From positions 1-64,000 of the forward strand of contig JACPPF010000169.1 in NCBI GenBank assembly GCA_016191165.1: DNA of 64,000 nucleotides. Reading direction: 5' to 3'. This document shows, in pieces, positions 5,180-51,112 of the stretch (the first letter of the stretch is position 1; each line of letters begins with the position of its first letter). A model generated the notes under the pieces. It was not told the origin of the DNA. It did not search any database and worked only from the letters and a program-made list of their open reading frames with translations. The translations under genes and the position numbers were made by a program. Origin of the DNA: Planctomycetota bacterium. Lineage in GTDB: Bacteria > Planctomycetota > Planctomycetia > Gemmatales > Gemmataceae.

Positions 5180-6160
5180 ATGAACCGACATCACATCCTG
5201 GTAATTGACGACGACGCGGCCGTCGCCGGCTTGCTTGAGCATTTGCTGGAAACCGCCGGCCACCAAGTGACCCTGGCCCGGGATGGTCGGGAGGGATTGG
5301 CCCTGGTCGGGACGAATAAGTTCGACCTGGTCCTTACGGACCTCGATATGCCCCACTTTGACGGCCATGACGTCTGTCACCGCATCAAGCAGGAACCGGC
5401 CACGAGATTGATTCCCGTCTTGATGATCACCGGCCGAAATGCGCAGGAGGCTAAATTGCGCGCCTGGGAACTGGGGGCCGACGATTATCTGACCAAGCCG
5501 TTCGACACGGTGGAAGTCCTGGCCCGATGTCGATCCCTGCTGCGCGTCAAACAACTGATGGACGAACTCGATTCGGCGGAAGCCGTCGTCTTCGCGTTCG
5601 CGCGGGCGGTCGAGGCCAAGTGTCGTTACACCTGGGGACATTCGGAGCGGGTCGCCGCCGGCGCGGTGGGCCTGGCTCAGCGCCTGGGGCTTCCCGAGGC
5701 GGACCAGGGGGTATTGCGAAAGGGGGCCATGCTCCATGACATCGGCAAAATCAACATTCCCGACGCCATCCTCAACAAGCCGGGCGCACTGACCGCCGCG
5801 GAGTATGAAATCGTCAAGCAGCATCCGACCCAGGGCGCCCGCATCGTTGAGCCGCTGCAGTCCATTCGCGATACCATTCCGCTGATCCGCTGGCACCACG
5901 AGCGGCTCGATGGGCAAGGTTACCCGGACGGCCTGTTCGGCGGGGCCATCCCTCTTATGGCTCGCATCCTCGCGGTCGCCGACGTATTCGACGCGATCTC
6001 GAGCGAACGGCCTTACCGGCCGGCCCTGTCGTTACCGGAAAGTTTCGCGATCCTCCGCACCAATGCCGCCGGTGGCGGCCTCGACCCGGAACTCGTCAAA
6101 TGCTTTTGCGGACCGTCGGCGACGTCCATGCTGGACCCGAAAAATGCCGTCTTGGTGTAG
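5180..6160 (+). CDS. Response regulator with HD-GYP cyclic-di-GMP phosphodiesterase output
   Basis: A 326-residue regulator. The receiver domain covers about residues 4-120, with the phospho-accepting Asp in LVLTDLDMPHFDG. The HD-GYP domain follows at about 130-310: HDIGK is the HD motif, and HHERLDGQGYPDGL is the GYP signature that marks cyclic-di-GMP phosphodiesterases. The metal-binding motifs look intact. I chose the ATG at 5180 because GGAG lies nine bases upstream; another ATG at 5165 would add five residues. The gene sits immediately after the hybrid kinase gene, so phosphorylation by that kinase is the simplest way it could be controlled. It would then link the kinase signal to cyclic-di-GMP turnover. 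Confidence 0.9.
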   Translation: MNRHHILVIDDDAAVAGLLEHLLETAGHQVTLARDGREGLALVGTNKFDLVLTDLDMPHFDGHDVCHRIKQEPATRLIPVLMITGRNAQEAKLRAWELGADDYLTKPFDTVEVLARCRSLLRVKQLMDELDSAEAVVFAFARAVEAKCRYTWGHSERVAAGAVGLAQRLGLPEADQGVLRKGAMLHDIGKINIPDAILNKPGALTAAEYEIVKQHPTQGARIVEPLQSIRDTIPLIRWHHERLDGQGYPDGLFGGAIPLMARILAVADVFDAISSERPYRPALSLPESFAILRTNAAGGGLDPELVKCFCGPSATSMLDPKNAVLV

Positions 6161-6413
6161 GGCGAGTGGCAGGAGGAAAGAAACCCGCCGGACCGGACTT
6201 CAGTCCACGCCACATCTCCAGGCGTCTGCCCGGCGGCCAAATCATGTCCTGTCGCTCGCTAAAGCAACGATGCCACCGCAACGCCTCATGCCTCAAATGG
6301 CAAAGCGCGGACGGGCATGGGTTCATCTCGCCAGGAGTTCCGCAATTCAAGAAACCAAATGCGCTTGCAAGGCGAAAAACAACAGCTAGAATGAGGGGGT
6401 TGGTTGAAAAAAT

Positions 6414-6485
6414 GCGGGCGTAATTCAGTGGTAGAATGCTAGCTTCCCAAGCTGGACGTCGCCGGTTCGAATCCGGTCGCCCGCT
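6414..6485 (+). tRNA. tRNA-Gly (anticodon CCC)
   Basis: The acceptor stem GCGGGCG (6414-6420) pairs fully with CGCCCGC (6478-6484). The anticodon stem CTAGC/GCTGG encloses the loop TTCCCAA, giving anticodon CCC. The T arm GCCGG-TTCGAAT-CCGGT is intact. The discriminator is T and CCA is not encoded. The integrase gene starts 113 bases downstream, the usual arrangement for an element inserted at a tRNA 3' end. Confidence 0.95.
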
Positions 6486-6559
6486 CTGACAGAAGTATCA
6501 AGCCGATAGCGACTTAACGCGATCCTCCCGATGTTCGGGATTGGCGGCTGAACCCGGTT

Positions 6560-6580
6560 ATCCAGTACGGTGTACTGGAT
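6560..6580. promoter_or_regulatory. Perfect 9-bp inverted repeat upstream of the integrase
   Basis: ATCCAGTAC and GTACTGGAT are perfect reverse complements separated by GGT, and end 18 bases before the integrase ATG. A structure with the same geometry (9-bp arms, 3-base gap, sharing ACTGG/CCAGT) precedes the DUF1580 gene at 8046-8066. They are candidate operators, excisionase sites or mRNA hairpins controlling the two genes. Confidence 0.5.
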
Positions 6581-6598
6581 TCTTTCGGAGTCAGCGCC

Positions 6599-7816
6599 AT
6601 GTCCCGCACCAAATCTGGCACTATCCCCACCTACCGCCACCACAAAGCCAGGAATCTCGCGGTCGTCACCGTTGACGGCCACGACTACTACCTTGGCACT
6701 TACGGCAGCCCCGACAGCCACAGAAGATACGAAGCTCTGGTCCGGTCGTGGCGCGAACGTCAGGATGACCCTGAGCCGTCCGCCAATCAGCTGCTGGTCC
6801 CCACCGACCGGCCGAGCGTGAACGAACTGATCCTCGCGTATCTCAAGTTCGTCAAGCAGCACTACAAGCTTTACCATGGCAGGAACAAGGAGGCTGCTTG
6901 CGTCTCCGACGCCCTCGCGGCGATTCAGGAATGCGGCTACGGCCCCGAGCCTGCCGATGCCTTTCGCCCCAAAGACCTGAAAAAGGTCCGAGACTGCATG
7001 ATCGCGAAAAACTGGTCTCGCGGCTACCTCAACCATCAGGTCATACGGATCAAGCGCATGTTCGCGTATGCCGTCGAGGAGGACATGGTGCCCGGTTCTG
7101 TCTATCACGGTCTCCTGGCGATCAAAGGCTTGCGAAAGGGAACACCAGGTGTCCGCGAGGCGGGCAAGGTCAAACCTGTTCCGACCGACGATGTCAAGGC
7201 CGTGCTGAAAAAGGCCAACAGGATGATCAAGGCGATGGTGCTTTTTGCTTGGTACACCGGAGCCAGACCCGGGGAAGTCTGCGCCTTGAAGCCGTGCTAT
7301 CTGGACACTGGCACGAGGGTGTGGACATTCAGCGTGCCTCCCGACAGCAACAAGACCGATGTCCACGATCAGGAGCGGACAATCTACGTCGGCCCGAAGG
7401 CACAGAAAGTACTGAAAGTCTGGCTGAAGAACATCGAACCTCACGAATATGTATTCAGCCCGATCCGTGAAGCACAGCTGAGGCAGGCAGCAAGGGCGGC
7501 AGCGCGAAAAACGAAACCGACGCCTTCGGAACTCCGAAAGAAAGAGGAGCGGAAAAGACGACTGCCGAAACGCTGCAAGCGCGACCATTACGACCCCAAC
7601 GCATTTCGGCAGGCAGTCGTCCGACTGTGTGACGCTGCCGGCGTGTCCCGCTGGTCGCCGAATCGCCTTCGGCACAACGCTGGCACAAGGTTCCGCAGGA
7701 AATACGGAATTGAGGTCGCCCGCATCCTGCTAGGACACAGCAGAGTATCCACGTCCGAGATCTACGCAGCGCCAAACGCAAAGAAGGCGATGAAGGCCGC
7801 GCTCGACATGGGATAA
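6599..7816 (+). CDS. Tyrosine recombinase / integrase
   Basis: A 405-residue phage-type site-specific recombinase. The N-terminal part has a SAM-like core-binding region (about 75-190). The catalytic domain shows box I TGARPGEV (Arg near 222), box II NRLRHNAGT near 357, LLGHSRVS near 376 and the probable nucleophilic Tyr in SEIYAAP near 388. The first His of the HxxR box is replaced by Asn (N-R-L-R), which is unusual; the other catalytic positions look present. The ATG at 6599 has CGGAG upstream. Lying directly 3' of a tRNA gene, it is the likely integrase of the accessory region to its right. A Lys/Arg-rich insertion at about 300-335 separates the boxes. I did not find a second copy of the tRNA 3' end in the window. 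Confidence 0.9.
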   Translation: MSRTKSGTIPTYRHHKARNLAVVTVDGHDYYLGTYGSPDSHRRYEALVRSWRERQDDPEPSANQLLVPTDRPSVNELILAYLKFVKQHYKLYHGRNKEAACVSDALAAIQECGYGPEPADAFRPKDLKKVRDCMIAKNWSRGYLNHQVIRIKRMFAYAVEEDMVPGSVYHGLLAIKGLRKGTPGVREAGKVKPVPTDDVKAVLKKANRMIKAMVLFAWYTGARPGEVCALKPCYLDTGTRVWTFSVPPDSNKTDVHDQERTIYVGPKAQKVLKVWLKNIEPHEYVFSPIREAQLRQAARAAARKTKPTPSELRKKEERKRRLPKRCKRDHYDPNAFRQAVVRLCDAAGVSRWSPNRLRHNAGTRFRRKYGIEVARILLGHSRVSTSEIYAAPNAKKAMKAALDMG

Positions 7817-8045
7817 ATGCTGAAATCACGGATTTATCGCGAGGGTGCGACAGGGACGTGAGAGATGTTTGCACGCGGGGGTTGACGGCAACGTCCCTCT
7901 CGCCTATGATTCTCTATCGTTCGGTTCTACCGCGGAGTCGGCTGGGAGAGCTTCCCGCAATTCGGAACCTTCGAGTATTCAGAAACCCGAAAGGGTTCAT
8001 TTCACACCTGGGACCTCCCACTCGACGGGTGATGTGAACCTCAAA

Positions 8046-8066
8046 GATAACTGGTTTCCAGTTATC
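8046..8066. promoter_or_regulatory. Perfect 9-bp inverted repeat before the DUF1580 gene
   Basis: GATAACTGG and CCAGTTATC are perfect reverse complements with a TTT gap. The ribosome site GGAGAGG begins at the next base (8067), so the hairpin touches the translation start region of the gene beginning at 8081. The rest of the 264-base gap after the integrase holds no gene I can support. Confidence 0.5.
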
Positions 8067-8080
8067 GGAGAGGTTCCGCC

Positions 8081-8788
8081 GTGCAACAGAACCGTCACCA
8101 AACCGCTCCCTCCACCGTTAATCAACAAGCCCAGCACAGCGAGACCGCTGGGGGATCAAGCCTGATCCGTCTGGCGGACATGCCTAATCATGTCCCCCCG
8201 GGCCGCAACGGGAAAAAGCGGCACAAGACAACGATCTTCCGATATGCCACACGTGGCGTGGCCGGTGTCCGACTTGAAGTCTGGCGACTCCCCGACGGGT
8301 GGTACTCCAGTCGCGAGGCGTGGGATCGTTTCGTGGAACAGCTGACGGCTGCGCGTCGCACTGGCCCGTCCACGCCGCGCGTATTGTCTCCCACGGCCGC
8401 CAAACGGCAAAACTCTGTCGAGGCAGAAATTGAGGCAGTGCGCGCTTCCATCGGAAGACAGGCCACAGCCTCCAAGGACGAGGGAGCCCCTGAACCTAGC
8501 GCGCCAAAGCCGCGCTGGGATGCCGACCGCGCTGAACTCTGGTTCGGAAATCGTCTCTGCAAGCGATTCCGTCAGAAGGCAAAGAACCAACGCATCATTC
8601 TCGCCACCTTCCAGGACGATGACTGGCCCAGCCGAATCGACGATCCGCTTTCCCCTGATCCAGACCCAGAAACTGACAACCGGCAACGGCTCGCTGACGC
8701 CGTGCGCCGATTGAACAAGAACCCTTGCATTCTTTTCGAGCTTGACGGAACGTCCGAAGGCATCCTGTGGGCGCCAAGGCAACCATGA
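8081..8788 (+). CDS. DUF1580-type putative DNA-binding protein (excisionase-like)
   Basis: A 235-residue protein. Residues about 27-90 (IRLADMPNHVPPGRNGKK, then RGVRLEVWRLPDGWYSSRE) match the pattern I know from DUF1580, a planctomycete-associated small helix-turn-helix or excisionase-like family. A second conserved-looking block sits at the C-terminus (WFGNRLCKRFRQKAKNQRIILATFQDDDW ending in a GILW segment), making it longer than the bare domain. The start is GTG at 8081, supported by GGAGAGG eight bases upstream. Its position right after the integrase, behind a perfect palindrome, suggests a recombination-directionality factor or an element regulator. DNA binding is inferred from the family resemblance, not shown. 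Confidence 0.65.
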   Translation: MQQNRHQTAPSTVNQQAQHSETAGGSSLIRLADMPNHVPPGRNGKKRHKTTIFRYATRGVAGVRLEVWRLPDGWYSSREAWDRFVEQLTAARRTGPSTPRVLSPTAAKRQNSVEAEIEAVRASIGRQATASKDEGAPEPSAPKPRWDADRAELWFGNRLCKRFRQKAKNQRIILATFQDDDWPSRIDDPLSPDPDPETDNRQRLADAVRRLNKNPCILFELDGTSEGILWAPRQP

Positions 8789-8993
8789 GTGCTGCTCCGC
8801 GCCCGGCGGCACCAGCGCCCGTGGAGCGCCCGGCAATGAAATGGCATACTTCCAATGACGCTTCGCGGTCCCGATATTGGTGACCACTGTAGCGCCGCCC
8901 GCCGCTCGGCATGCGAGAGCAGCATGCTGCGCGAAAGAGATGTGTGGAGTGTGTAGGGTGTGTCGCCATACTCATGCGCGCGAAAGGAATGAA

Positions 8994-10763
8994 ATGCCAC
9001 TGGACGCCGATCAACAGCCTGTCCCGGAAAAAGATGAGGAGCAGCGCAGCCCCGAGGCTGTAGTAACCGAACCGCCGATCAATGAGAACGTTGATGCGGT
9101 GGCCAATCACGGACCACCCCAAGATCATGATCCACCGCCCGGTGCGATTTACCCTCGCCCATCGGCGCTGGCGTTGAAGGAGGACTTCGTCTGGGACGAG
9201 AACAAGTCGGTGGTTGAACTCTACACGGCTCTCGGCCGTGCCTTGGCCACACCAGGCGACCTTTACCGCGCGCCTGCCTATGCAGGGGGATTGATCCTCG
9301 GCTCTCTTGCTCCTGGCATCCAACCACTGCCTGTGACGGAGCCAAAGCAACTTGCTGCCGTTGTCCTGGACCGCCTGCGCGTGAAACACGTCAAGGATGG
9401 GAAAACCAAAGGCCGTTTGATTCCTCCAGGACATTTGAATATTCTGCTTCGTTCCGAACTCTTCTTGCAGCAATTCCGACCGCTCGATGCGATTTGTCGG
9501 TCGCCTCGATACTTTGAAGATTTCAGTCTCCCAGAAGCCGGGTACAACGACCGCGGCGCAGGCCAACGACTCCTCTACTCCGGTAGCGACATCGAAATGG
9601 CCACCACGCTTGAGGCCATACCGAAGTTCCTGGATGTCATGGCCTTCGCGACAAATGCAGACCGGACGAACGCTGTAGCAGCGGCGCTGACAGCCCAGCC
9701 GTTGCGGCATTTCTGGCCAGGTGCCAAACCCTTGCTGGCGGTGAGCAGCACGAAATCGCACGGCGGCAAGGACTCGACGATCTTGTTCGCAGCGGGGGCG
9801 ACTCCGCGGGTCTCCATCTCATATCAAGCGACCGATTGGGCGCTCGAAAGAAGCTTCGTCGGTGCCATGAGGCACAGCCCCGACACGGGCGTTATCGTCA
9901 TTGAGAATGCCCGGCTGGCCAGGAAGCAGCCCTATATCGCCTCGTCATTCATCGAACGCTTGCTGACCGATCCCGAACCATTTCTTTGGAGCACTGGCAC
10001 CGGTGCGCCCGTACGACGGCGAAATGAATTCGTCATCGCCATTTCAACGAACTTCGGAACGCTCAGCGAAGACCTCGTCAACCGTAGCCTGCCCATTCGC
10101 TTGACACCTGTGGGCGATGTTCACGATCGCACAACGCCAATCGGCAATCCAAAGCTTGAGTTTCTGCCCGCCAACCGAGATCGGATCGAAGCCGAATTGC
10201 GAGGCATGGTTGAGAGGTGGAAACGCGCTGGTAGGCCACCAGATCTTTCGGTTAAGCACCCCTTCACACAATGGGCTCAAGTGGTCGGCGGCATTCTTCG
10301 CGTAAATGGCTTTACCAACTTCCTCGACAACTACACGACCAGCAAGACTACACAGGATCCTTTGCGCCAGGCACTAGGACTTCTGGGCGCAGCCACACCG
10401 GGGTCTTGCCTGACCGCAACGGAATGGACCACGCATGTCAAAAACCTCGGCTTGGCCCGCTCTATCGTTCCCGAAAATGATCGCGAGAACGATAAATCGC
10501 AAGCCCGGGCGATCGGCGTAATTCTCAGCAACCACCAAGGTGAAACCTTCATTGGGGAAACGGACAACGACCGCTTCGTCCTTCGCCTCGAAAAGTCTCG
10601 GCGGCGCATCGGGGGAAAACCGGCTACGCGGTACTGCTTCATTTGCATCGATCGAACCGAGCTGCCCACTGACCCTGATGAGAAGGAGCAGCAAACTCAG
10701 ACGCCCGCGCAGCCTGATGAGACTGGCATCGCGGTGCGGACGCCACAAGGGGAGGCAAATTGA
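8994..10763 (+). CDS. AAA-type ATPase / helicase-like protein of the element
   Basis: A 589-residue protein with an acidic, proline-rich N-terminal tail of about 60 residues. The central region (about 225-380) resembles a D5-type or other AAA+ helicase core. A degenerate P-loop-like segment STKSHGGKDS lies near 252, a Walker-B-like strand GVIVIENAR near 299, and a sensor-like EFVIAISTNF near 350. The C-terminal part resembles the regulatory domains of such ATPases. The P-loop is not canonical, so ATPase activity is uncertain. I chose ATG 8994 because AAGGAAT precedes it; the frame is open to 8877 but that extension is Cys/Arg-rich and implausible. The next gene overlaps its stop (TGATG). Given the clamp loader, clamp and primase genes downstream, a role as replicative helicase or initiator is the best guess. 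Confidence 0.55.
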   Translation: MPLDADQQPVPEKDEEQRSPEAVVTEPPINENVDAVANHGPPQDHDPPPGAIYPRPSALALKEDFVWDENKSVVELYTALGRALATPGDLYRAPAYAGGLILGSLAPGIQPLPVTEPKQLAAVVLDRLRVKHVKDGKTKGRLIPPGHLNILLRSELFLQQFRPLDAICRSPRYFEDFSLPEAGYNDRGAGQRLLYSGSDIEMATTLEAIPKFLDVMAFATNADRTNAVAAALTAQPLRHFWPGAKPLLAVSSTKSHGGKDSTILFAAGATPRVSISYQATDWALERSFVGAMRHSPDTGVIVIENARLARKQPYIASSFIERLLTDPEPFLWSTGTGAPVRRRNEFVIAISTNFGTLSEDLVNRSLPIRLTPVGDVHDRTTPIGNPKLEFLPANRDRIEAELRGMVERWKRAGRPPDLSVKHPFTQWAQVVGGILRVNGFTNFLDNYTTSKTTQDPLRQALGLLGAATPGSCLTATEWTTHVKNLGLARSIVPENDRENDKSQARAIGVILSNHQGETFIGETDNDRFVLRLEKSRRRIGGKPATRYCFICIDRTELPTDPDEKEQQTQTPAQPDETGIAVRTPQGEAN

Positions 10764-12115
10764 TGGCTGCCACGCGCGCTTACCAGACCCAGCTTGCGCT
10801 GCCCGACGAGATACTTTTCTGTCAATGGGCAATCGCGGCGGGATTGGCCGGCCACTCCCTACAACTGCGTTTTCAAGGTTTTCCGGCCCCAATTTTGCGC
10901 CGGTTGTTCCAGGTCTGCACAAGCTGGACCAGTGCTGACCGCGTTCATGCTGTGTACGGGTTAGCCGACTTCCGTACCCTGACGCAGGGTATCGTGAAGC
11001 CGCGTCTGATTCTTGTTTTCGATGCGCGGCTTGCCGTCAAGATCGCATGGCGGGTCGCCCTGCATCAGCGCGATGATAGCGAGTGGCACGATTCCTGCCC
11101 CGCTGTCTTCGTCTGCCAATCGCCTCGGCTCGGCGACGAAGACCCGGCAGCGACGCTCGTTTTGCATGGTCACCCCGCCAAAGTGGGCCTACTTACTGAC
11201 TGGTTGCGTCACTGCAGCGACGCCAACATCGGCAAGCTTCCGCGTGAACTACTCGCGCCGATCGACTTTGATGGGCGACTCGAGAATTTGCTTTGGCCCG
11301 CTGGTCCTGAGACACCCAAAGGGTTGCGGCGATATCGCGAGTGCCAAATCCTCCGCGGCCTGTTGGTCGGCGCCAGAATTCTCCGTGAAAGGTCTACCCC
11401 CGCAACGGCTGCGCCCAAGTTGACGGTAACTCTGGGCGACTATTCTGCCGTTTACGGACGGCTCCAAAGCGCCTCGCTCCAACCCGAAGATGCGCACTTC
11501 GACCCGCTCGCGGAGGCGATGGTCAATCGTGCAAACGCCCAACTCGCGATGCGGCATCAGAAAAACGCTGAGCCCGCAAAGGTGGCGCGTCTAGAAGGAA
11601 AGGCGGCCGCCGCGAACTCTGTCAGTTCCCGTGATCGACTGATTACGCGTCGAGAAATCTGGAACCTCGGTAACCCGAATGGATCCTCTCTTAAGCAACT
11701 CGTCAAATACCTGCTTGCAGTAGGAGAACAAGGCTACAAGACCTTCCGCACGCTTGGGACGATTCAGCCTCTGCCGAGGATAGGCTCCTGGCCGGAACAG
11801 GAGCCAGCGAGACTGGTAAAGTTGCTTATCCCTTGGTCAGACAAGCAGGTGCGCGATCACTTCCACAGGCTCTATGTGGAAGGACTCATCGAAGCGCTGC
11901 CCAGACCTGGAAATCAGCCGTGGGTGTATGTGCTTCCTGAGGTCGTCCGCGACCCCACATCTCCGTTTCTGCATCTTCCTGCCCCAGCAAGTGTTGCTGG
12001 CTTGCCCGAAGCAACGGCGCCAGCAACGCCTGGAATGACCATCGCCGGTCCCCAAGAGTGGGCAGGCGGAAATTGTGAACCTCCAGATATTAACGACGAA
12101 AATAAGGCCGATTGA
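10763..12115 (+). CDS. Unknown protein with C-terminal winged-helix-like region
   Basis: A 450-residue protein of unknown function. No catalytic motif is visible. Residues about 340-400 (WSDKQVRDHFHRLYVEGLIEALPRPG) look like a winged helix-turn-helix of the kind found in replication or partition proteins. The start ATG overlaps the upstream stop codon, so translation is probably coupled to the AAA-type ATPase, and the two products may act together. The clamp-loader gene follows after 36 bases. It could be an accessory helicase subunit or an initiator; I cannot tell which. Confidence 0.6.
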   Translation: MAATRAYQTQLALPDEILFCQWAIAAGLAGHSLQLRFQGFPAPILRRLFQVCTSWTSADRVHAVYGLADFRTLTQGIVKPRLILVFDARLAVKIAWRVALHQRDDSEWHDSCPAVFVCQSPRLGDEDPAATLVLHGHPAKVGLLTDWLRHCSDANIGKLPRELLAPIDFDGRLENLLWPAGPETPKGLRRYRECQILRGLLVGARILRERSTPATAAPKLTVTLGDYSAVYGRLQSASLQPEDAHFDPLAEAMVNRANAQLAMRHQKNAEPAKVARLEGKAAAANSVSSRDRLITRREIWNLGNPNGSSLKQLVKYLLAVGEQGYKTFRTLGTIQPLPRIGSWPEQEPARLVKLLIPWSDKQVRDHFHRLYVEGLIEALPRPGNQPWVYVLPEVVRDPTSPFLHLPAPASVAGLPEATAPATPGMTIAGPQEWAGGNCEPPDINDENKAD

Positions 12116-12151
12116 CCGCAGGTAATCTCTTTCACAAGAACAGGCAAACCC

Positions 12152-12982
12152 ATGAATGTTCGACCACGATATTGGCGCCCGGAACGATTTGACGAAATCG
12201 TCGGCAAGACCAATGAACCGGCGGTTCGCTGCGTGCAAGAATTCGCACTGCGCCGGGCTCCTTTTGCGGGGCTGTTCCTGGGACCGTTTGGCACTGCCAA
12301 AACGAGCGCGGCGCGAATCGTTCATCGGAGCTACTGCTGCAAATGCCCCGACCCGGTCACGGCAGACGCGTGCATGAAGTGCGACGGCTGCCGGTGCGTC
12401 GGCCCCGAATACAACGGGGACGTTCACGGGTACCGCCGCTGGGAGATCGATTGTACCATCAACACTCGACAAAAGATCATCGAAGTTCTCGAACAGGCAC
12501 GGCAAGAACCAAAAGCACTGCTCACGTTCGATGAAATTCATCGCCTCGACGAACACACCGCGCAGGAACCACTCCTCAAGTTTGCCGAGGACTTCACCAG
12601 CGGTGTCTTTCTCGCCGTGACGATGACTGATCCAGACGCGCCGCGCGAGCGCCCAGTCAACATTTCTCCTCCCTTGTACGACCGGCTGCAGAAGTTCTAT
12701 TTCGGGATCCCCACTGCGCCAGAAATGGTTGCCTTGTTCGAGAAAAAAGTTCCGATGTGGGGCGTAGATGCGGAGGAGGCCACTCTTTGCTATTTGGTCG
12801 AGAGGACTCAACTGAGTTTCCGCGCATGCTTGCACATGCTGGATGTAGCCGTGATGGTGAAGGGCGGAAAGCTGACTCGTGAACTCATCGATCAATACTT
12901 GGGCGCGCCGGAGGAAGACGCCAATGATGACCCACCGATCGATCCTTTTGAGGAACATCCCGAGGCTGACGAGAACCAATGA
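12152..12982 (+). CDS. DnaX-like clamp-loader ATPase
   Basis: A 276-residue relative of the DNA polymerase III gamma/tau subunit, which opens and loads the sliding clamp. Visible features are the P-loop GPFGTAKTSA (about 44-53), the four-Cys zinc module characteristic of DnaX (CCKCPDPVTADACMKCDGC, about 66-84), and Walker B with DEIH (LLTFDEIHRL, about 124-133). The N-terminus (YWRPERFDEIVGK) matches the DnaX opening. Domains I-II are present, but the C-terminal oligomerisation domain is short and the tail is acidic. The third glycine of the P-loop is alanine (GTAK in place of GTGK), which may alter ATP handling. It lies next to a clamp-like gene, so the element may bring its own clamp-loading pair. 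The host enzyme would still supply the polymerase. Confidence 0.8.
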   Translation: MNVRPRYWRPERFDEIVGKTNEPAVRCVQEFALRRAPFAGLFLGPFGTAKTSAARIVHRSYCCKCPDPVTADACMKCDGCRCVGPEYNGDVHGYRRWEIDCTINTRQKIIEVLEQARQEPKALLTFDEIHRLDEHTAQEPLLKFAEDFTSGVFLAVTMTDPDAPRERPVNISPPLYDRLQKFYFGIPTAPEMVALFEKKVPMWGVDAEEATLCYLVERTQLSFRACLHMLDVAVMVKGGKLTRELIDQYLGAPEEDANDDPPIDPFEEHPEADENQ

Positions 12983-13034
12983 GTGAGACGACACCTATTG
13001 CTGTCTTACGCTGTAATCACCAGGAGGAATCGCG

Positions 13035-14336
13035 ATGATCCGCATCAAACCAGAAATGCTCCAACTTGCGGGACGCCTTGCCGATGTTCGGCGCGAAGCG
13101 CTGAAAACCGATGGAGTGAAGAACTGGTCCCGCCACCATCTGATTTCCTATGAGGGTGGTGGCTACTTGACGTTCATGACATCGGACAACCGCATCGGCG
13201 TCGTGAGCCGTCTGCCTGTGGAGGGTGTGGACAGCCCTTGGTCGGCAACGATCGTGGCCCGGCCGTTCGACCACATCGCAAAGTACGTCAATGGCGGGGC
13301 GTACGAGCTGGATCCCTGTGACGCCAAGGTGATCGTTCTCCGTAAGGTGCCGTTCAAATATCCTTTGAGGCGCGGGGAGCCGGGTGGTCCATTCCCTCTT
13401 CTGACTGCGCCACCCGCTGATGAAGGCTCGGCATCGTTCGATCCCGCTGTCGTCGAACGGGCCCTTAGCCTGCTCATGGATAGCAACAAGAAACGCGACG
13501 ATGAAGGTGGGCTCGACTTTTGCAGCCTTTTTGAGGATGGTCTGATCGCCTATAGCGACGGCGGGGTGCTCTGGAAAGCGCGAGGGCCGGTGTTGCCATC
13601 CGCCATACACTTGCGTCGCGGAGACGCCTTTCGTGCCTGGGAATGGCTTAAGGCGCTTGAGGCAGCAGAAGTAACCACAACTATGCACATCGCGGCAGTG
13701 GAGAAGGATGGGCGGTGGAGCATTGTTTTCTGGAGTCATGATCGAGCGCATCTACTCCAGGTTCGGTCAGCGCCGCGGTCGTTTCCACGTCGCGCGGTTG
13801 ATGGGCCTGAGTACGAAGTACCGACAGTCTGCTGTGACGTAGATCGAGATACGCTTCGACGGAGAGCCGGCATGTCCTGTCAAGCGCCCTCGTGGAAACT
13901 CGATTGCGAGTTTGCCACTCTGGAGGATGGGAATCACGTCTTCAAGGCGCGGTTCGACGTCGCAGGAAAGAGCGGCGGCCGTGACCAACTTGAGATCGAA
14001 AACTGGCAGCAAGCTGAAGAAGCTCAACAGCTCAACAGCCGGTTTACTGTTGGCTCACGCAATCTCGAACGACTGCTTCACCGCCTCACCAGCAGCCGCG
14101 TCAAAATTGCATTTCATCAACGGGCACACTGCTTGTCAGTAACCCCAGTGCCCGACGACGGGAACGACTTGGATGCGGGCGCCGTGGTCGGCTTCTTGCG
14201 CACCGGCGTGCCCGAACAGGACCAAGATCGAACCACAGCCGCTCCAGCGGACGCGATCGACACCAAACTGCCGTCGGCCGGCGAGACCGGAACACTGGAA
14301 GCGCTGCCCGGACCGGCCCCAACACAAATATCATAA
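13035..14336 (+). CDS. Divergent sliding-clamp-like protein
   Basis: A 433-residue protein behind a good ribosome site (AGGAGG). The N-terminal block (LISYEGGGYLTFMTSDNRIG) and the repeated domain pattern resemble beta-clamp domains. Near 340-375, NSRFTVGSRNLERLLHRL followed by VKIAFHQRAHCLSVTPV matches the shape of the third domain of DnaN. Sequence identity to a canonical clamp is low, so the call leans on that pattern and on the adjacent clamp-loader gene. A canonical DnaN is encoded at 30154, so this would be a second, element-specific clamp. The C-terminal 50 residues are low-complexity and rich in Ala, Thr and Pro. An unrelated element-specific replication protein is the alternative. 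Confidence 0.5.
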   Translation: MIRIKPEMLQLAGRLADVRREALKTDGVKNWSRHHLISYEGGGYLTFMTSDNRIGVVSRLPVEGVDSPWSATIVARPFDHIAKYVNGGAYELDPCDAKVIVLRKVPFKYPLRRGEPGGPFPLLTAPPADEGSASFDPAVVERALSLLMDSNKKRDDEGGLDFCSLFEDGLIAYSDGGVLWKARGPVLPSAIHLRRGDAFRAWEWLKALEAAEVTTTMHIAAVEKDGRWSIVFWSHDRAHLLQVRSAPRSFPRRAVDGPEYEVPTVCCDVDRDTLRRRAGMSCQAPSWKLDCEFATLEDGNHVFKARFDVAGKSGGRDQLEIENWQQAEEAQQLNSRFTVGSRNLERLLHRLTSSRVKIAFHQRAHCLSVTPVPDDGNDLDAGAVVGFLRTGVPEQDQDRTTAAPADAIDTKLPSAGETGTLEALPGPAPTQIS

Positions 14337-14608
14337 CTTCGGCTCTGGTCTGCTCTCCTTGCCGTCGCAACAAATGCATCGTCGTTTCATCAGGTAGCGC
14401 TTGCCCAACATCCTTGCAGAATTTGATTCGCGAGGCGTCAAGACTGACACTTGATGAAGAGGCCGGATTTGGTCCTCCCGCAGGCAGGCGATCACCGATC
14501 ATGTCCGTTCTCTTGAAACCCTTCTCATTTTCATTTCTGCCTTGAATTCTTTCAGTCTCATTCGACATGTCTGGGTAGACAAAGCAGACAACCTGGACGG
14601 GTTTCACA
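14337..14608. other. Gap between clamp-like and primase genes
   Basis: These 272 bases separate the clamp-like gene from the primase gene. The frames crossing them are short or run antisense into neighbours. No repeat, hairpin with a T-tract or clear promoter was recognised. A promoter for the primase gene could lie here. Confidence 0.4.
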
Positions 14609-17086
14609 ATGTCTACCAATATCGCATCAGCCGAACTGCGCACAACGCTGGAGGGAACGACGCCGACACAGATCAACGGCGTATCGCTCTTCAACCAGAA
14701 GGGCAAGCTGAAGAGTCGGTACTCGTGGGACGAAAAACTCCGGATGCTCGGCTGCACTGAAATCCAGTTCCACGCATTTGGTGACCTTCTCGCACCACGC
14801 AAAAGCCCTTTCGGCATGCGCCGGGCCAGTGCTACCGACACCGGACACTGGTTCACGGTAAAACGAGAGCTGACCCTCGACCTGATTGTGTGGCATCTTC
14901 TTGGCGCTCGTATCCCGAATCGTCTTCCATTATGGATCGGGCCCAGAGCCTGGGATTGGACCAGGTTCGTCGCGATTGACGTGGATCTCCGCAACGGCAA
15001 TGAGACTGATTTCCGGCGCCGCTGTCGAGAAGTCGAAGAAGCATTTCGGCTGCTGGAAGTTCCTCCTGAATCGTGGCTCATCGTTCCGACTCCATCCGGC
15101 GGGCGACATTACTACTTCTTCACCTCGGATAGAATCAGAACGGCGGAGATCGCGCCGACCATGGCCCAGGCCGGCATTGTCGCAAGCAAGGGCAAGTTCG
15201 AGATTTTTCCTTCGACAGTTCAGATCCTGCGACTTCCCTTTGGACATATTCCGAACCATCCGCATCAACCGGACGAATGGATTCGGTTCATCGACAACTA
15301 CCAAACTGGCCGTCTCCCAACGATAAACTGGGAAATGTGCAAACATGTCGCCAAAAAACATGCCAGTAGCCGGGAAACAACCACTCCCCTCTTTCTCCCC
15401 GAGCAAAAGGAATCGCCAGCAACAGACCGCAAGCGCCAGGGGAAACGAAAGCCCACCATTCGCTCTCCCGAGTACTCGCCAGTGGCCGGCATGTCAAAAG
15501 TCGATCGGCAAAAACTGCAACGCTACGACAAGCTCCTCTCGAGTCCTGTGGAATCTCCGGCTGACATTGAGCAGTTGCTCGACCTCGGCATTCGCTGCGA
15601 AGGCACCAGGCATGAGGCGATCATGAGGTTGGCTTGGAACTTTGTCTTTGTACGTGGTTGCAAAGAAGAGGATGCCATCTGCGAAATCACCGACTGGGCC
15701 TATCGAACCGGAGAGGGCATATCCAAAGATGTTGACGCGGACCTGACAAAGGGTAGCCATAAGGTCGAAGATGATGTCAAGGACCTAGTCCAGCACTTTG
15801 TGCGAATTCGAGATAATCAGGGCAGCGTCTCTGTCTGCCTCTTTGCCGAGGAGGAATTGGATGCGATCAAAAATGCGACGATCGGTGCCGAACCTCGGCT
15901 GTGTTTCGCCCGAGGCAGGTTCTTGGTCGAATTCCTGCAGTTTGCCAAAACAAACGGCCGGCTCACAAAGGATGGCTGGGAATGCTGTCCGGCCGCTGAG
16001 GGAATCATCCGAAAATGGCGGGGATGCAGCGGTCAGCGTTACAAGCCACACTTGGATTGGGCCCAGGAACAGGGCATCGTGGTCATGACGAAGGAGAAAC
16101 GTCAGACCCAAGATCGAACCGGCTGTACCCGGACCTTTCTGCTGCGAATACCGACCGCGGCGAGGATGGCGTGGAAGTTGACACGAGACGACGTGCTTGC
16201 TCGATTGAAGCAGTTCAGCTTTGCTCCCAAGAACGCACCGAAAAGCACAGGTAGCCCGTGCGAAAAAAGTGACAGGTATCTTGTTGGTTTTCCGACGAAG
16301 GAGGAAAACTCTCCCGAGAAAGAAAAGGCAAGCGATCTGACACCGGAAACGGTAAGGAAGGAGACTGAGGAGACGGTTGAGCAAACGAAGGCAAATCCAT
16401 TTCCTGGCAATGGCCCCTTTGGCCCAGCCATCACACTTCCAACAAGGAACGAAAATCATGCCGAACGATCTCTTGGCCCTGCCCACGCCGCTGGCGCCGG
16501 CGGCCCAGACGATGCTCCTGCAGCACCCACAACCAACCGGGATGGACCCGGAAACCAGAGGGGTGAATATCAGGGGCGTGCCATTTGCCATCTGGCAACG
16601 GGCACGCCAGAATGCCCTCCTATCGGGTCTACCCTTCAAGGCATACGTGATCCGTCTGCTGGCCCAATCCGAACCATTTTCAACCGACGGAACAACCGAC
16701 GGTTCAGAATAACGATCCTGCAGAAGCCTGCTGAACCCGAAACGATCGACGCGGCCACCGTCCAGCGACAGATCGCCGAGGTCAAACAGGCCCTGGTCGC
16801 GGACCACCCAGACAAGAGAGCGTATGTGGAAGCCCACCCAACCTGGCCGCTCATCGAGGCCATGGCTCTGGATCCAGCCTACTCCGTTAGGCAACGGTCC
16901 GTTCTTCTGGCGAATCCGCAACACCTGGCACCCTCCGAACTGAAATACCGAAAGGAACTGATTCGGGAATACCGGGATCAAGAAACAATCAACTCTCCAC
17001 CCGCAAAAGGTCCATCGGCGCCTATCGATCCTCGGAGCCACATTTCGCAAACGATTCCCACAGAATCCCTTCAATTATCCGGGTAA
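14609..17086 (+). CDS. AEP-superfamily primase-like protein
   Basis: An 825-residue protein. Three archaeo-eukaryotic primase motifs can be seen in order: FVAIDVDLRNG near 119 (metal-binding D-x-D), VPTPSGGRHYYFF near 158-170 (the PxGGxH element), and FEIFP followed by QILRLPFG near 206 (the Q-x-R-L-P-G element). This pattern is typical of primase-polymerases in plasmids, phages and conflict elements. Residues about 300-420 are helical and may form the primase C-terminal domain. From about 540 onward the protein is rich in Lys, Glu, Pro and Thr and looks disordered, apart from a charged C-terminal helical region. No helicase P-loop was found, so the helicase would be a separate protein, possibly the product of 8994-10763. 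The function is primer synthesis for element replication by inference. Confidence 0.7.
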   Translation: MSTNIASAELRTTLEGTTPTQINGVSLFNQKGKLKSRYSWDEKLRMLGCTEIQFHAFGDLLAPRKSPFGMRRASATDTGHWFTVKRELTLDLIVWHLLGARIPNRLPLWIGPRAWDWTRFVAIDVDLRNGNETDFRRRCREVEEAFRLLEVPPESWLIVPTPSGGRHYYFFTSDRIRTAEIAPTMAQAGIVASKGKFEIFPSTVQILRLPFGHIPNHPHQPDEWIRFIDNYQTGRLPTINWEMCKHVAKKHASSRETTTPLFLPEQKESPATDRKRQGKRKPTIRSPEYSPVAGMSKVDRQKLQRYDKLLSSPVESPADIEQLLDLGIRCEGTRHEAIMRLAWNFVFVRGCKEEDAICEITDWAYRTGEGISKDVDADLTKGSHKVEDDVKDLVQHFVRIRDNQGSVSVCLFAEEELDAIKNATIGAEPRLCFARGRFLVEFLQFAKTNGRLTKDGWECCPAAEGIIRKWRGCSGQRYKPHLDWAQEQGIVVMTKEKRQTQDRTGCTRTFLLRIPTAARMAWKLTRDDVLARLKQFSFAPKNAPKSTGSPCEKSDRYLVGFPTKEENSPEKEKASDLTPETVRKETEETVEQTKANPFPGNGPFGPAITLPTRNENHAERSLGPAHAAGAGGPDDAPAAPTTNRDGPGNQRGEYQGRAICHLATGTPECPPIGSTLQGIRDPSAGPIRTIFNRRNNRRFRITILQKPAEPETIDAATVQRQIAEVKQALVADHPDKRAYVEAHPTWPLIEAMALDPAYSVRQRSVLLANPQHLAPSELKYRKELIREYRDQETINSPPAKGPSAPIDPRSHISQTIPTESLQLSG

Positions 17087-17156
17087 GAGCAGACAGAGCA
17101 GACAACCGCATATGGTGGTTCCCGGTTTACTGTTCCTCTCAAGAAAGGACAAATTC

Positions 17157-18125
17157 ATGAACTCCGACAATGAGAGCCTCCCAGAGGTGTATTTTACGTT
17201 TGTAAAAACCGCCGTGGAAAACAGTTACTCTGTTCTCGACATCGCTGACACCGACCCACTCCGATACGTGGGAGCGAATCATTATTGTTTGTCACACACC
17301 ATCCACCCTTATCAAGCCTTCGACCTCTTCAAGAACGTCACTCAATGGAAAACAGATTTGTCGGCATCTGGCTACAAGGCACACGAACGCTTTGCGTTAG
17401 GTACGCTGTCGATTATTCGTGACGAGCTTAACCGACTGGAAGCAGAGCGATTCTCCTCGACCACCGGCCTACCCGATCGGAATGGAACCATTCGGTCCTT
17501 GTCGATAGCAATGGCGGTCCTGCTTAGTACGGCTGATCGGATCAGAAGTGTGACAGCGTTTCTGAAGGATGCACTTCCCTCACCTCCTGAAGAGGACGAC
17601 CAGAATCTGCTAAACGACCTGGATGCGTTTGTTTCGACAGTGGACTGCACACCGTTCAGGAAACAGTTCGGGTTAACCGTTTCTCAGAAACCTCCCCTGG
17701 CACAGCTACGTTCAAGACGGACCAAGTCCAATACCGGAAGGTCCAATCCTTGCCAATCACCATCGGAAAGCCACCCCCGGACTGTTGCTTTCAGCTTCCA
17801 TGACATTGAAGCCATTCAGGACTTGGCTCTTTTTCACTACCTTCAGGTGAAGCAACGGTGGTACTCAGTCGTGAATCAGTCACAGCATTTCAGTCGAGAC
17901 GACCTTGGAATGCTGCGTCTCTTCTTCCAGGATGAGATTAGGAAGGCAAAGGAAACGCCTCCATCGACCGACGACCCCACTGTACTCGTCGATTTCGACC
18001 AGTACTTCGAACGCCTCCTTAAGCGAGCTCCTGTCAGCTTTCAAGGAACGTTAGTCTCCATAGGAATCAAAGATGAAGGCGACAACGTGACGTTTCAGAT
18101 TGAGTCTCCATACGCCCCGGAATAG
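17157..18125 (+). CDS. Protein of unknown function
   Basis: A 322-residue acidic, soluble protein with no motif I recognise. The start ATG at 17157 is supported by AAAGGAC upstream; the frame is open 45 bases further but that extension lacks a ribosome site. Residues 30-170 and 215-320 look helical, joined by a Ser/Arg-rich linker. It follows the primase gene by 70 bases on the same strand, so it may belong to the same transcription unit. Confidence 0.6.
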   Translation: MNSDNESLPEVYFTFVKTAVENSYSVLDIADTDPLRYVGANHYCLSHTIHPYQAFDLFKNVTQWKTDLSASGYKAHERFALGTLSIIRDELNRLEAERFSSTTGLPDRNGTIRSLSIAMAVLLSTADRIRSVTAFLKDALPSPPEEDDQNLLNDLDAFVSTVDCTPFRKQFGLTVSQKPPLAQLRSRRTKSNTGRSNPCQSPSESHPRTVAFSFHDIEAIQDLALFHYLQVKQRWYSVVNQSQHFSRDDLGMLRLFFQDEIRKAKETPPSTDDPTVLVDFDQYFERLLKRAPVSFQGTLVSIGIKDEGDNVTFQIESPYAPE

Positions 18126-18288
18126 CTGGCCTCTTCAAAGCTATGTTTAGGGACGACGTAGTCTGGCACCCTGCCGACCACGGACTCCAACAGACACCAG
18201 CAGTTACAAGTAATCGTCTCAACATGAACAGCCGCTCCTTCTTTAAGGCTGCTCGACGTTTCAACAAATGGAGATGGAGGTAAATGGA

Positions 18289-19536
18289 ATGTCTCGGAAG
18301 ACTCGTCGATACTTCGGAGTTCACTCTTCTCGTCGGGGCCTTCTTGACAGAAAGTGTTTTGCACGTTTTCGAGGATTATGCCTGGGCAGGTACAAAACAC
18401 CAGAAGAAGCTGCGATCGCATACAATCACGCCGCGATGTTGGTAGGCGGCGCAACGTTACCGCACAACATTATCCCACCGGAGAAACTCCCCTCTCCCGA
18501 ACGACAGGCTGAAATCACATCAGAGGTCCAATGTTGCCTGCATCAGCATGGGCCTCTTGGAAAGCCAACAGAAACCCGAGGAATGAACACCCTGTCCCAG
18601 CTAACAGCCCAAGGCGTAAGTAGCACAAGCGGCTATATCGGCGTGCGCTCGGACGCTGACAAAAAGTGGCGTGCGGAAGTTAATTGGGAATGCCGGCCGC
18701 TTTCTCTGGGCAGCTACGACTCTAAACACGAAGGGGCATATGCCCACAATTACGCCGTGCAACTGTTGGGGGGTGGTGAGCCGTTCACTAACGTCATCCC
18801 ACCAGAGTTGCTTCCGCCGGCCGAACGCTGTGTTCAGATCCAGGGGTTCGTGGAACAGCGGCTTCAGCAGTATGGATTTCCTGGAATGGATAGCGGCATT
18901 CAACAACACTGTGTATCCCTACAGCGGGTGAACGCAAAAACCGGCTATAGAGGGGTCGACGAAGTCAACGGAGGACGCCGATGGAGTGCCAAAGTTAGAG
19001 TGTCATACAATGGTCGCTCGTACTCTTTAGGCAGGTATCTAACGCGTCACGAAGCCGCACTGGCCTTCAATCGTGCCATTCTCGTGTTGTGTGCCGATTA
19101 CATCCCCCTCAACCAAATCGCGGATGAAGATCTTCCTACCCCAGAACGGCAGGAAGTTGTTCGGCTCAGTGTCGAACATAGGCTTTGGAAGCATGGAGTG
19201 ATCGAACAGCCACCTCTCACGCATGAGGATGCCTGTTACCTTGTGTGGATCAACTTGCACGAGGGATACCACGGAATAGCGTGGCACAAGGCCAGCAAAT
19301 CCTGGCAGGTGCGCTTCCCCTACCGAGGATCGACTTTGTGCCTTGGATACTGCAAAACTGGGTCCGAGAGTGCATTCGCATTCAACCACGCTGTCCGCGT
19401 TCTCGGCCTTCCCCCGTTCATTCTGAATGTGATCCCTGAGGAAGACATGCCTGACGTGGCTTCCCAACATCGTATTCGTGCCAAGGTAAATGCCCGGCTA
19501 GCAAGGCTGAAGATTGGTGGCGACGTGACCGCTTGA
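18289..19536 (+). CDS. Four-fold AP2/ERF-like DNA-binding protein
   Basis: A 415-residue protein made of four tandem AP2-like units of about 55-60 residues, each with a linker helix. The units begin at RRYFGV (about 6), SGYIGV (about 107), TGYRGV (about 215) and EGYHGI (about 325). Each has the three-stranded-sheet signature with LG.Y, then an A..YN.A or A..FN.A helix, then a conserved N.IP or N.I turn. Bacterial AP2 domains usually accompany HNH homing endonucleases; no HNH motif is visible here, so this is an AP2-only array. Four units would suit a long or repeated DNA site. The start follows GGAGG by about eight bases. It probably binds element DNA as a regulator or structural protein. Confidence 0.75.
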   Translation: MSRKTRRYFGVHSSRRGLLDRKCFARFRGLCLGRYKTPEEAAIAYNHAAMLVGGATLPHNIIPPEKLPSPERQAEITSEVQCCLHQHGPLGKPTETRGMNTLSQLTAQGVSSTSGYIGVRSDADKKWRAEVNWECRPLSLGSYDSKHEGAYAHNYAVQLLGGGEPFTNVIPPELLPPAERCVQIQGFVEQRLQQYGFPGMDSGIQQHCVSLQRVNAKTGYRGVDEVNGGRRWSAKVRVSYNGRSYSLGRYLTRHEAALAFNRAILVLCADYIPLNQIADEDLPTPERQEVVRLSVEHRLWKHGVIEQPPLTHEDACYLVWINLHEGYHGIAWHKASKSWQVRFPYRGSTLCLGYCKTGSESAFAFNHAVRVLGLPPFILNVIPEEDMPDVASQHRIRAKVNARLARLKIGGDVTA

Positions 19537-20012: not shown

Positions 20013-20060
20013 AGAGTAGTTTACTCGCAATCGACCTGCCCCTGGGATGAAGGAATGCAC

Positions 20061-20939
20061 ATGACTGACGGTCAACCCAACCTGGAGGAATCTGTTGCCG
20101 ATTCGGCCCACCACGCCTGGCACAACCGGAAGGGTCCTGACGCACCGATTGCCTGGTACGGCGGGAAATACTACCTGGCCGAATGGATCATCGGCCAGTT
20201 CCCCCCGCACCGGGTCTACGTCGAGCCGTTCGGCGGTATGGCCAACGTGATGCTCAAGAAGCATCCCAGCGAGGTAGAGATCTTCAACGATTTGGATGGC
20301 AGGGTGGTGAATTTCTTCCGTGTGCTGCGGGATCCAGCCATGCTCGTCGAGTTGAAACGGCGGTGCGAGCTGACTCCGTACAGCCGGGAAGAATTCAACG
20401 ACCTCATCGACACGCCCGACCCGCAAGACCCCATGGACCGAGCCTGGTGGTTCTTCGTCCGGTGCCGACAGGCCAGGGGCGGCATCGGCATGTCGGCCCT
20501 CACGAAGAACGCTTGGGCGGCCAGCACCCGGACCCGGCGACAGATGCCGGAGCCGGTGTCCAAGTACCTCGCCGCCATCGATGGCCTGGACGGCGTGGCC
20601 GCTCGTTTCCGTCACGTGATGATCGAACACCTGCCCGCCCTGGAGCTGATCCCGAAGTACGACGGCCCTGATGTATTGTTCTACTGCGACCCGCCGTACC
20701 CGGGTTCGACGCGCTCCGGCGGTAAGGCGGCAACCTACGGGATCGAGATGGATCAGCAAGATCACCACAATCTTTTGACCGTCCTCCGCCAGTGCCGCGG
20801 CCGAGTGCTGCTCAGCAGCTACGACTCGACCCACTACCGCACCATCCTGCACGACTGGCACTGCTTGGAAAAGGACACGCACGTACAGTTCTCCAACTCC
20901 GGCGGCCATCGCCGCGAGCTGTTGTGGAAGAACTGGTGA
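20061..20939 (+). CDS. D12-class DNA adenine methyltransferase (Dam-like)
   Basis: A 292-residue N6-adenine methylase. Motif I of the alpha class is seen in APIAWYGGKYYLAEWI and VYVEPFGGM; the catalytic motif IV is DPPY in FYCDPPYPGSTR near 207. The order motif X/I, target-recognition region, then DPPY fits the Dam/D12 family, and the length is normal. ATG 20061 is preferred because AAGGA precedes it; another ATG lies at 20055. No restriction endonuclease gene is adjacent, so it may be an orphan methylase protecting the element or regulating it. The target sequence cannot be read from the protein. Confidence 0.85.
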   Translation: MTDGQPNLEESVADSAHHAWHNRKGPDAPIAWYGGKYYLAEWIIGQFPPHRVYVEPFGGMANVMLKKHPSEVEIFNDLDGRVVNFFRVLRDPAMLVELKRRCELTPYSREEFNDLIDTPDPQDPMDRAWWFFVRCRQARGGIGMSALTKNAWAASTRTRRQMPEPVSKYLAAIDGLDGVAARFRHVMIEHLPALELIPKYDGPDVLFYCDPPYPGSTRSGGKAATYGIEMDQQDHHNLLTVLRQCRGRVLLSSYDSTHYRTILHDWHCLEKDTHVQFSNSGGHRRELLWKNW

Positions 20940-21678: not shown

Positions 21679-21759
21679 GCTGCTTCCGACAGAGTGGTAA
21701 GACCTCCTGGCTTGGCATCCTTGAGAATCCAGCCTTCACCGCGAATGAGGAACCGACCT

Positions 21760-22275
21760 ATGAACCTCGCTACGTTTCTGCTTGCCGCCTACGGCACCCG
21801 TGTACACCGAACATCGTTCGGCGACGGATTGAGCATCAGGATCGACGACCAGAGCCAAGGAGACGTTCATTTGGGCTTTTGTCAGATCCATCTCTCCGCC
21901 CAAAGGTCCGACGACACATCCGTCCTCCTTGAGTTGTCACCAGCCCCGCACGACGCGGAGGTCGAAGAAATGGTGAATCGGCACGGTGGCCACATCACTC
22001 ATGGCTCAATCGGGGCCACCATCCAGCTCCCTCTCGGCCCAAGGGACGCTCGTCGCGTCCGCGACCTAGCCAGGGCCATCCGCCGGGTGACCCGCCGTGG
22101 GCAACGCTACCCAGACCCGAACTGGAAGTGGATTTGTCCCCGCACGGCGGACTCCCTGGAGCGGTTTGCCGAGTTGCTGGCACGGGCCAGGCGTCAACCG
22201 GCCAACCAATCCGCCAATGCTGAGCCCGGCCCGGCGTGCTCGGGCCGATCGAGTCACGAACCAAAGCGAGGCTGA
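21760..22275 (+). CDS. Protein of unknown function
   Basis: A 171-residue protein with a clear ribosome site (GAGGAACC) ahead of ATG 21760. The first 110 residues alternate strands and helices; the C-terminus is basic. No motif was recognised. The next gene starts three bases after its stop, so the two are probably translated together. Confidence 0.6.
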   Translation: MNLATFLLAAYGTRVHRTSFGDGLSIRIDDQSQGDVHLGFCQIHLSAQRSDDTSVLLELSPAPHDAEVEEMVNRHGGHITHGSIGATIQLPLGPRDARRVRDLARAIRRVTRRGQRYPDPNWKWICPRTADSLERFAELLARARRQPANQSANAEPGPACSGRSSHEPKRG

Positions 22276-32767: not shown

Positions 32768-32839
32768 CGTGTTTCCCAGATGGTCAAGTCCACGCGATCC
32801 CGCTGTCTCACTTGCTCCTGGAGGCGCCCTCGTCAAAGC

Positions 32840-34507: not shown

Positions 34508-34544
34508 GATTTCCCTTTCTCATGATCCTGAGATGCCGCTAAAG

Positions 34545-41394: not shown

Positions 41395-41576
41395 GCTTCA
41401 ATGGGTCCACGGTCTGATAACCGTGGTTATGTTCGTACCAATGTGCAAACGGCGTTTTCCGATGGGGCTTCAATGGGTCCACGGTCTGATAACCGTGGTT
41501 ATGTGTGTGCAAGGAGGCCAAGAAAGAACCAATCTTCGAGCTTCAATGGGTCCACGGTCTGATAACCGTGGTTATG
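41395..41576 (-). CRISPR. Type I-G CRISPR array, three repeats and two spacers
   Basis: Three identical 37-base repeats lie at 41395-41431, 41467-41503 and 41540-41576 with spacers of 35 and 36 bases. Read on the minus strand, in the direction of the cas genes, each repeat contains the inverted arms ACCACGGTTAT and ACCGTGG and ends in ATTGAAGC, close to the ATTGAAAC end common in type I repeats. On the plus strand each repeat begins GCTTCAATGGG and ends CCGTGGTTATG. All three are intact, so the array looks short rather than decayed. The ECF sigma gene ends it at the other side. Confidence 0.95.
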
Positions 41577-41836
41577 GCTCGCTGTCGTAAAACACGAAAC
41601 GCATGGGGTTTCTGTGCCCTCAAGCGAGAGGATAGTGACATTGGTATGTCAATCGAATTGCGAGTCAGTGGGGTCACACTATAAACTCCTTGTGTATGCG
41701 GACTTGTAATCCGCGAGAGGCTTCCGCTGAGCGAAATCAAAGATAACCTCCAATTGTCAAAGAACTTTTGGCTTCAAAGAAGCTACACGGCGAGTTCACC
41801 ACGTCTAAGCTCGCGGGCGCAATGGCAACAAGAATC
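41577..41836 (-). promoter_or_regulatory. Probable CRISPR leader
   Basis: The 260 bases between the end of csb2 and the first repeat contain no gene and are more AT-rich than the cas genes. In minus-strand orientation this is the leader side of the array, where the array promoter and new-spacer insertion would be expected. No exact boxes were assigned. Confidence 0.45.
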
Positions 41837-45351: not shown

Positions 45352-45365
45352 GGGCAGTCCTCCAG

Positions 45366-51078: not shown

Positions 51079-51112
51079 TGCGTTCGCCGGGAATCGTCGC
51101 GGCGCCTCCAGG

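Follow-up and report, generated by a model that had tools for sequence, protein, structure and literature searches.

Does a mobile element integrated at a planctomycete tRNA gene bring its own clamp and clamp loader together with a primase, and what would such a set of genes do? The question is raised by a block at 6,414 to 17,086 of a 64,000-nucleotide stretch of DNA (the window), which comprises positions 1-64000 of contig C157 (94,814 bases) in a draft genome of 7.2 Mb and 183 contigs. The initial annotation read the block as a replicative integrative element with a partial replisome. The mobile element at a tRNA gene and its replication module stand up to closer analysis; a clamp and loader of its own are less secure, as the loader-like ATPase has no collar domain and the clamp resemblance is confined to one domain of a protein that is absent from sister loci. 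We consider it fairly probable that the locus holds all or the left part of an integrative mobile element, lodged at the 3′ end of tRNA-Gly(CCC), with a replication module that would be used after excision and whose family we encountered only in planctomycetes.

The annotated gene positions and order within 6414-17086 are correct, and every gene is on the + strand. The features of this block and of the genes that follow it are:

6414-6486, + strand: tRNA-Gly(CCC), the presumed integration site (3′ half), found with ARAGORN
6599-7816, + strand: tyrosine integrase (PF00589, E 3e-16; phrog_1, 1e-35)
8081-8788, + strand: DUF1580-like gene (PF07618, 0.004, below cut-off)
8877-10763, + strand: phage primase/polymerase-type AAA+ helicase-like protein (phrog_10537, 5e-5)
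10760-12115, + strand: P4, possibly with a winged helix at its C-terminus; upstream partner of the DnaX-like ATPase (homolog in L098)
12152-12982, + strand: short DnaX-like AAA+ ATPase with a zinc-type cysteine cluster and no collar domain (TIGR02397, 4e-20, below the equivalog cut-off)
13035-14336, + strand: 433-aa orphan, possible divergent DnaN-like clamp (alignment to domain I only)
14609-17086, + strand: Prim-Pol of the archaeo-eukaryotic primase (AEP) superfamily (phrog_21866 primase, 5e-5; motifs; fold)
17112-18125, + strand: gene 25 bp after Prim-Pol, with no significant family match
18268-19536, + strand: protein with AP2 / HNH-endonuclease-associated repeats (PF00847, 1e-9; phrog_99, 2e-25)
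20055-20939, + strand: D12-class adenine DNA methyltransferase (PF02086, 2e-16)
21694-22275, + strand: shared element gene (40% identity over 149 aa to L098 14694-15191, E 3e-28)

The P4 gene and the AAA+ gene overlap by 4 bases and an AGGAGG lies upstream of the 433-aa gene, so that much of the gene set reads as an operon; the widest gap after the DUF1580-like gene is the 272 bp before Prim-Pol.

An integrase adjoins the tRNA gene, as is characteristic of a tRNA-linked integrative element, and the tRNA, the integrase and the co-directional genes are all as first described. The same tRNA-Gly(CCC) is occupied differently in genus mates. One (L091) has another integrase there, with 32% identity to that of the window over 407 columns, the whole protein, and followed by a DUF1580 gene as in the window; another locus (L093) has an integrase-like gene 3′ of the tRNA without clear similarity to the window's integrase, and in the genome of a genus mate (G061) the 3′ half of the tRNA recurs as a perfect copy of 46 bp (window 6442-6487). 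Neither the clamp-like gene nor Prim-Pol was found in the genus mates, where the block is missing. Because other integrases and a half copy of the tRNA occur in these close relatives while the module does not, tRNA-Gly(CCC) is very probably a used integration site. BLAST relatives of the DUF1580-like gene are found after the integrase in L091 (2e-10), in L176 (3e-11) and in L102 (3e-6), and its product is likely to be an excisionase or regulator; a literature search on DUF1580 returned nothing.

The right end of the element is not apparent in the assembly. No repeat of 12 or more bases of the tRNA 3′ end occurs in the 88 kb downstream on contig C157, and elsewhere only other tRNAs or short matches were found. 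No empty site could be demonstrated in the genus mates, with which the left flank is not shared, and a repeat scan found scattered 2- or 3-copy repeats and neither iterons nor another clear origin. The missing right repeat would fit a decayed and immobile remnant, an old insertion that has lost its right end and whose genes are drifting, and so would the Walker A motif of the ATPase, which is GTAKT where relatives mostly have GxGKT/S, and the altered Walker A of the helicase-like protein. We nevertheless regard such a remnant as unlikely: all genes are intact, in frame and coding-like in composition, the catalytic residues of Prim-Pol are preserved, the altered helicase Walker A is also present in relatives, and in a draft of 183 contigs the far end may simply be missing from the assembly.

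Relatives of the module were sought in 102 genomes of the order, 392 of the phylum and 84,980 species genomes, and those of the Prim-Pol module occur in Planctomycetota metagenome-assembled genomes only; the scan of the 84,980 species used two short peptide patterns, and absence outside the Planctomycetota is therefore weak evidence. Viral contigs yielded no relatives of the loader, the clamp-like protein, the AAA protein or Prim-Pol at the sensitivity used. The order P4-type gene, DnaX-like ATPase, Prim-Pol is found in all four Prim-Pol loci that have upstream sequence – the window, L098, L099 (on the same contig as L053) and L101 – and the contigs of L097 and L100 start too close to the gene for upstream genes to be seen. 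A profile search of the 392 genomes with the ATPase gave three further loci (L175, L176 and L177) with the P4-type and DnaX-like pair and no Prim-Pol noticed. Serine recombinases adjoin the module in L098, and recombinase-type genes do so in L175 and L176. Since some of these loci adjoin other recombinases, the module is that of a modular family of mobile elements and not a fixed chromosomal block; a fixed context in all relatives, named at the outset as an outcome that would speak against mobility, is not seen among them or in the genus mates.

The AAA+ protein was correctly recognized as an AAA-type ATPase and shows a relationship to the helicase portion of phage DNA polymerase/primases. It has relatives with 47-52% identity in L045, L046 and L047, of which the L045 copy (52% identity) lies beside an integrase and tRNA-Glu and matches phrog_19930, a primase/polymerase, at 1.6e-8. 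Its altered Walker A (STKSHGGKDS) is common to these relatives. Because the AAA-gene relatives in L045-L047 occur without the rest of the module, this gene is outside the conserved core.

The AEP primase motifs reported for Prim-Pol hold. It is laid out as a Prim-Pol domain, a helical domain and a winged-helix domain, and D124-x-D126, SGGRH (163-167, with H167), E198 and RLPFG (208-212) are invariant in six family members, which thus carry all three motifs. The motif II histidine, invariant in the family, on its own neither includes nor excludes the PrimPol-PV1 supergroup, which is marked by a motif IV arginine conserved in the flange and by a relaxed motif II histidine. A model built from six sequences has a mean pLDDT of 65.5, with much of the core at 70-90, and predicts an AEP fold: residues 51-256 match the CRISPR-associated Prim-Pol (CAPP) of Marinitoga at a Z of 12.6, with 174 residues and 17% identity, far ahead of the next AEP entries at about 7 (Foldseek gives the same match prob 1.00 and E 2.7e-4), and residues of about 411-516 of the model have winged-helix matches with Z under 8.

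In another explanation, in whose favour the CRISPR-associated nearest fold can be counted, the module would serve defence or the control of DNA uptake instead of replication, as part of one defence island with the Dnd and type I-G CRISPR genes located some 9-37 kb downstream from the gene at 21694-22275 that is shared with other elements. Such a function has been proposed for the Prim-Pol of the integrative element ICETh2 of Thermus thermophilus, which, like that of the window, lies beside a helicase gene (Ppol-Hel); there it seems to act in defence against DNA from the environment, and the abstract of that report mentions no clamp loader or clamp (PMC7693054). Around the sister modules, however, no Dnd or Cas genes were noticed in the stretches that were read, and we think a defence role quite improbable. 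A further observation on ICETh2, which we count against a replication module in the window, is that its Prim-Pol is reported to be dispensable for replication of the element (PMC7693054).

The gene at 12152-12982 is a DnaX relative with the DnaX cysteine cluster, as proposed. Besides TIGR02397 it matches phrog_5846, annotated as 'clamp loader' (2e-14), and E. coli gamma/tau in the PDB (4e-12), the latter over residues 3-256 only and ending at gamma/tau residue 247. Seven copies of the element ATPase share invariant G44, K50, C63, C74, C77, C80, E128 and R178, and so have the AAA+ core with Walker A and B (K50 and E128), the four DnaX zinc cysteines, and the arginine finger (R178), which stands in contexts such as DRL, NRL and ERF and not SRC. 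All seven are 252-300 aa long and end without the C-terminal collar (domain III). The collar is needed in clamp loaders, where it serves assembly of the pentamer. With this defining feature missing, it does not follow that the protein is a clamp loader; judged from its sequence it departs from the standard clamp-loader subunit, and clamp-loader-like action is possible. In a tree with long branches the element ATPases group apart from eight host DnaX proteins.

The partner of this ATPase, P4, has a clear homolog in L098 alone (7587-8894; 28% identity over 432 aa, E 4e-28), and its counterparts in L099, L101, L175, L176 and L177 are positional only. It was first described as a winged-helix protein, to which the positional counterpart in L176 lends a weak winged-HTH match (0.007), whereas P4 itself has no Pfam match.

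The pair could also be understood as an initiator and an ATPase that load the helicase or Prim-Pol rather than clamps, in the manner of other AAA+ initiator-loader pairs, with the 433-aa orphan being no functional clamp. The seven collarless copies invite this interpretation, six of the seven loci have no adjacent clamp gene and three have no Prim-Pol, and the coding sequences of the P4-type gene and the ATPase overlap in L176 and L177. Yet the best matches of the ATPase are to clamp-loader families, its zinc cysteines and arginine-finger residue are kept, the gene directly after it in the window has a signal of DnaN domain I, and a collarless ATPase could work on the clamp or loader of the host; we hold an initiator and ATPase pair to be a tentative possibility, short of an even chance. 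If the collarless ATPase does load a clamp, clamp loading can work with a smaller machine, which would make a simple system for study; if its task is another, a descendant of DnaX has taken on a new function. In both cases the integrated element brings together a Prim-Pol, a relative of DnaX and possibly a clamp.

The protein at 13035-14336, announced as clamp-like, stands alone in the sequence searches. Nothing in Pfam, PHROGs, NCBIfam or the PDB sequences matches it convincingly, and it has no relatives in the 102 order genomes, the 392 phylum genomes or the viral contigs, and none among phages and plasmids at E up to 1. The best weak match (L005/L057) was rejected as a low-complexity reading. 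The DnaN families (PF00712/02767/02768 and TIGR00663) do not match it at E up to 1, so that it falls outside them, and hhalign and hmmsearch against DnaN alignments gave chance-level results, the hmmsearch score lying inside the range of shuffled sequences. A true second DnaN, encoded at 30154-31257, passes the same family test easily.

Individual domains were compared with a profile of 32 DnaN sequences against backgrounds of 959 and 4998 protein segments. Residues 1-122 align to DnaN domain I with a Z of 4.8, above all 959 segments from other window proteins, and with a Z of 4.3, above all but one of 4998 segments from other loci, at a cut that was picked post hoc, after the FP motif had been seen, and whose neighbours score lower. 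For domains II and III the Z is about 1 or less and not significant. Alignment over the whole length is borderline and changes with the gap costs chosen (z 3.1-3.3 at 10/1 and about 1 at 8/0.5), and we therefore use the domain I result alone. By eye, TSDNRIGV, PFPLL, SDGGVL and SFPRR follow the order of DnaN motifs. An AF2 prediction from the single sequence, with no relatives to deepen the alignment, has a pLDDT of 32 and a pTM of 0.20, values too low for the model to be informative about a ring fold. The gene is present in one of the seven loci, the space between loader and Prim-Pol being too short for it in the three sister Prim-Pol loci, and no canonical clamp-binding motif was found in the element proteins examined. 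The domain I signal is support for a clamp and not proof of one, and we lean, with modest assurance, towards the protein being a clamp.

From these parts we infer excision, autonomous replication and a set of protein-protein interactions for an integrative element with a replication module. The integrase would excise the element, with the DUF1580-like protein helping, and P4 and the winged-helix domain of Prim-Pol would recognize its DNA. The AAA+ helicase-like protein would then open the duplex, and Prim-Pol would make primers or short tracts. The DnaX-like ATPase, paired with P4, would remodel or load a replication factor, plausibly a clamp, and bulk synthesis would fall to the host polymerase; in the window copy alone, the divergent DnaN-like protein may stand in for the clamp of the host. 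A bolder form of this scheme seems to us improbable: a family of planctomycete integrative elements with a reduced replisome, in which the collarless DnaX-derived ATPase assembles with P4 as a substitute for the collar and so loads a clamp for Prim-Pol, the window copy bringing a highly diverged clamp of its own. Counted against the preferred element with a replication module are the lack of a right repeat, an empty site, an origin and a clamp-binding motif, and the collarless loader.

Mobile elements that carry both a clamp and a loader are of a known kind, and the rarity at first ascribed to them has to be tempered. The conjugative plasmid pOSC7112.02 of Oscillatoria nigro-viridis is likewise a mobile replicon with a clamp gene beside clamp-loader genes (dnaN-dnaX-holA), and dnaN or dnaX genes turn up in numerous plasmid records and also in phage records, some of them of chromosome size or fragmentary and perhaps misfiled. 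The plasmid has long, annotated dnaN, dnaX and holA genes and no Prim-Pol annotated nearby, whereas the element in the window has a collarless loader, a barely recognizable clamp and no holA seen, and is integrated and accompanied by a Prim-Pol. Bacterial DnaX (gamma/tau) and the phage clamp loaders (phrog_5846 and phrog_168) share with the window ATPase the AAA+ core, the zinc cysteines and the arginine finger, and differ from it in the collar; host DnaX differs also in its place in the tree. The PrimPol-PV1 supergroup (Kazlauskas et al. 2018, PMC5862659) resembles the present case in that AEP prim-pols are carried by integrated bacterial elements, and the main text of that survey does not mention DnaX, clamps or planctomycetes (PMC5862659). 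The nearest solved fold is that of CAPP, which is CRISPR-associated, the window Prim-Pol being fused to other domains and lying beside a DnaX-like ATPase. What is new here is the combination with Prim-Pol, the missing collar and, as far as searched, the restriction to planctomycetes; in the papers searched we found no description of a Prim-Pol, a DnaX relative and a possible clamp in one integrated element.

Downstream of Prim-Pol, the element probably reaches to at least 22.3 kb, because the gene at 21694-22275 is common to the sister element L098. Within this reach, the AP2/HNH-repeat protein at 18268-19536 is likely a passenger. Proteins that resemble the shared element gene product by eye are encoded in L101 (8237-8827) and L176 (12664-13260).

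Genes of the tRNA-Gly-linked element have relatives at loci in other planctomycete genomes. At 5599-8944 of one such locus, L045, a relative of the window's AAA helicase-like gene adjoins an integrase gene whose 3′ end overlaps a tRNA-Glu gene; the AAA gene is therefore also carried by another tRNA-linked element. Genome G474 has two loci with the DnaX-like loader, L175 and L176, and because the genes downstream of the loader (12171-13187, reverse, in L175 and 10554-11540 in L176) are very similar, their sequences suggest that this genome holds two related elements. In genus mate G061, the 3′ half of tRNA-Gly is present as a perfect 46-bp copy without the 5′ half (contig C197; 5712-5757 of locus L092), and this is likely to be an attachment scar left by another element.

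The window also contains the following features:

30154-31257, a second DnaN of ordinary type, whose TIGR00663 score exceeds the cut-off
31301-36587 and 54355-59263, genes for DNA phosphorothioation (Dnd) in two sets: the minus-strand genes encode DndD, a DndH/HerA-like ATPase and a dnd-associated methyltransferase, and the plus-strand genes encode DndB, DndC and another DndD
41395-52900, type I-G CRISPR-Cas: Csb2, Csb1/Cas7, Csx17/Cas8, Cas3 and a Cas4-Cas1 fusion
62944-63795, ISAs1-family transposase gene, start partial

The DnaN at 30154-31257 looks like an accessory clamp, because the score of the copy on another contig of the same genome (C82) is similar to that of the only DnaN in genus mates. 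Dnd-related genes adjoin the window's copy. Within the type I-G region, three copies of a 38-bp repeat (41395-41577), spaced 72-73 bp apart, resemble a CRISPR array.
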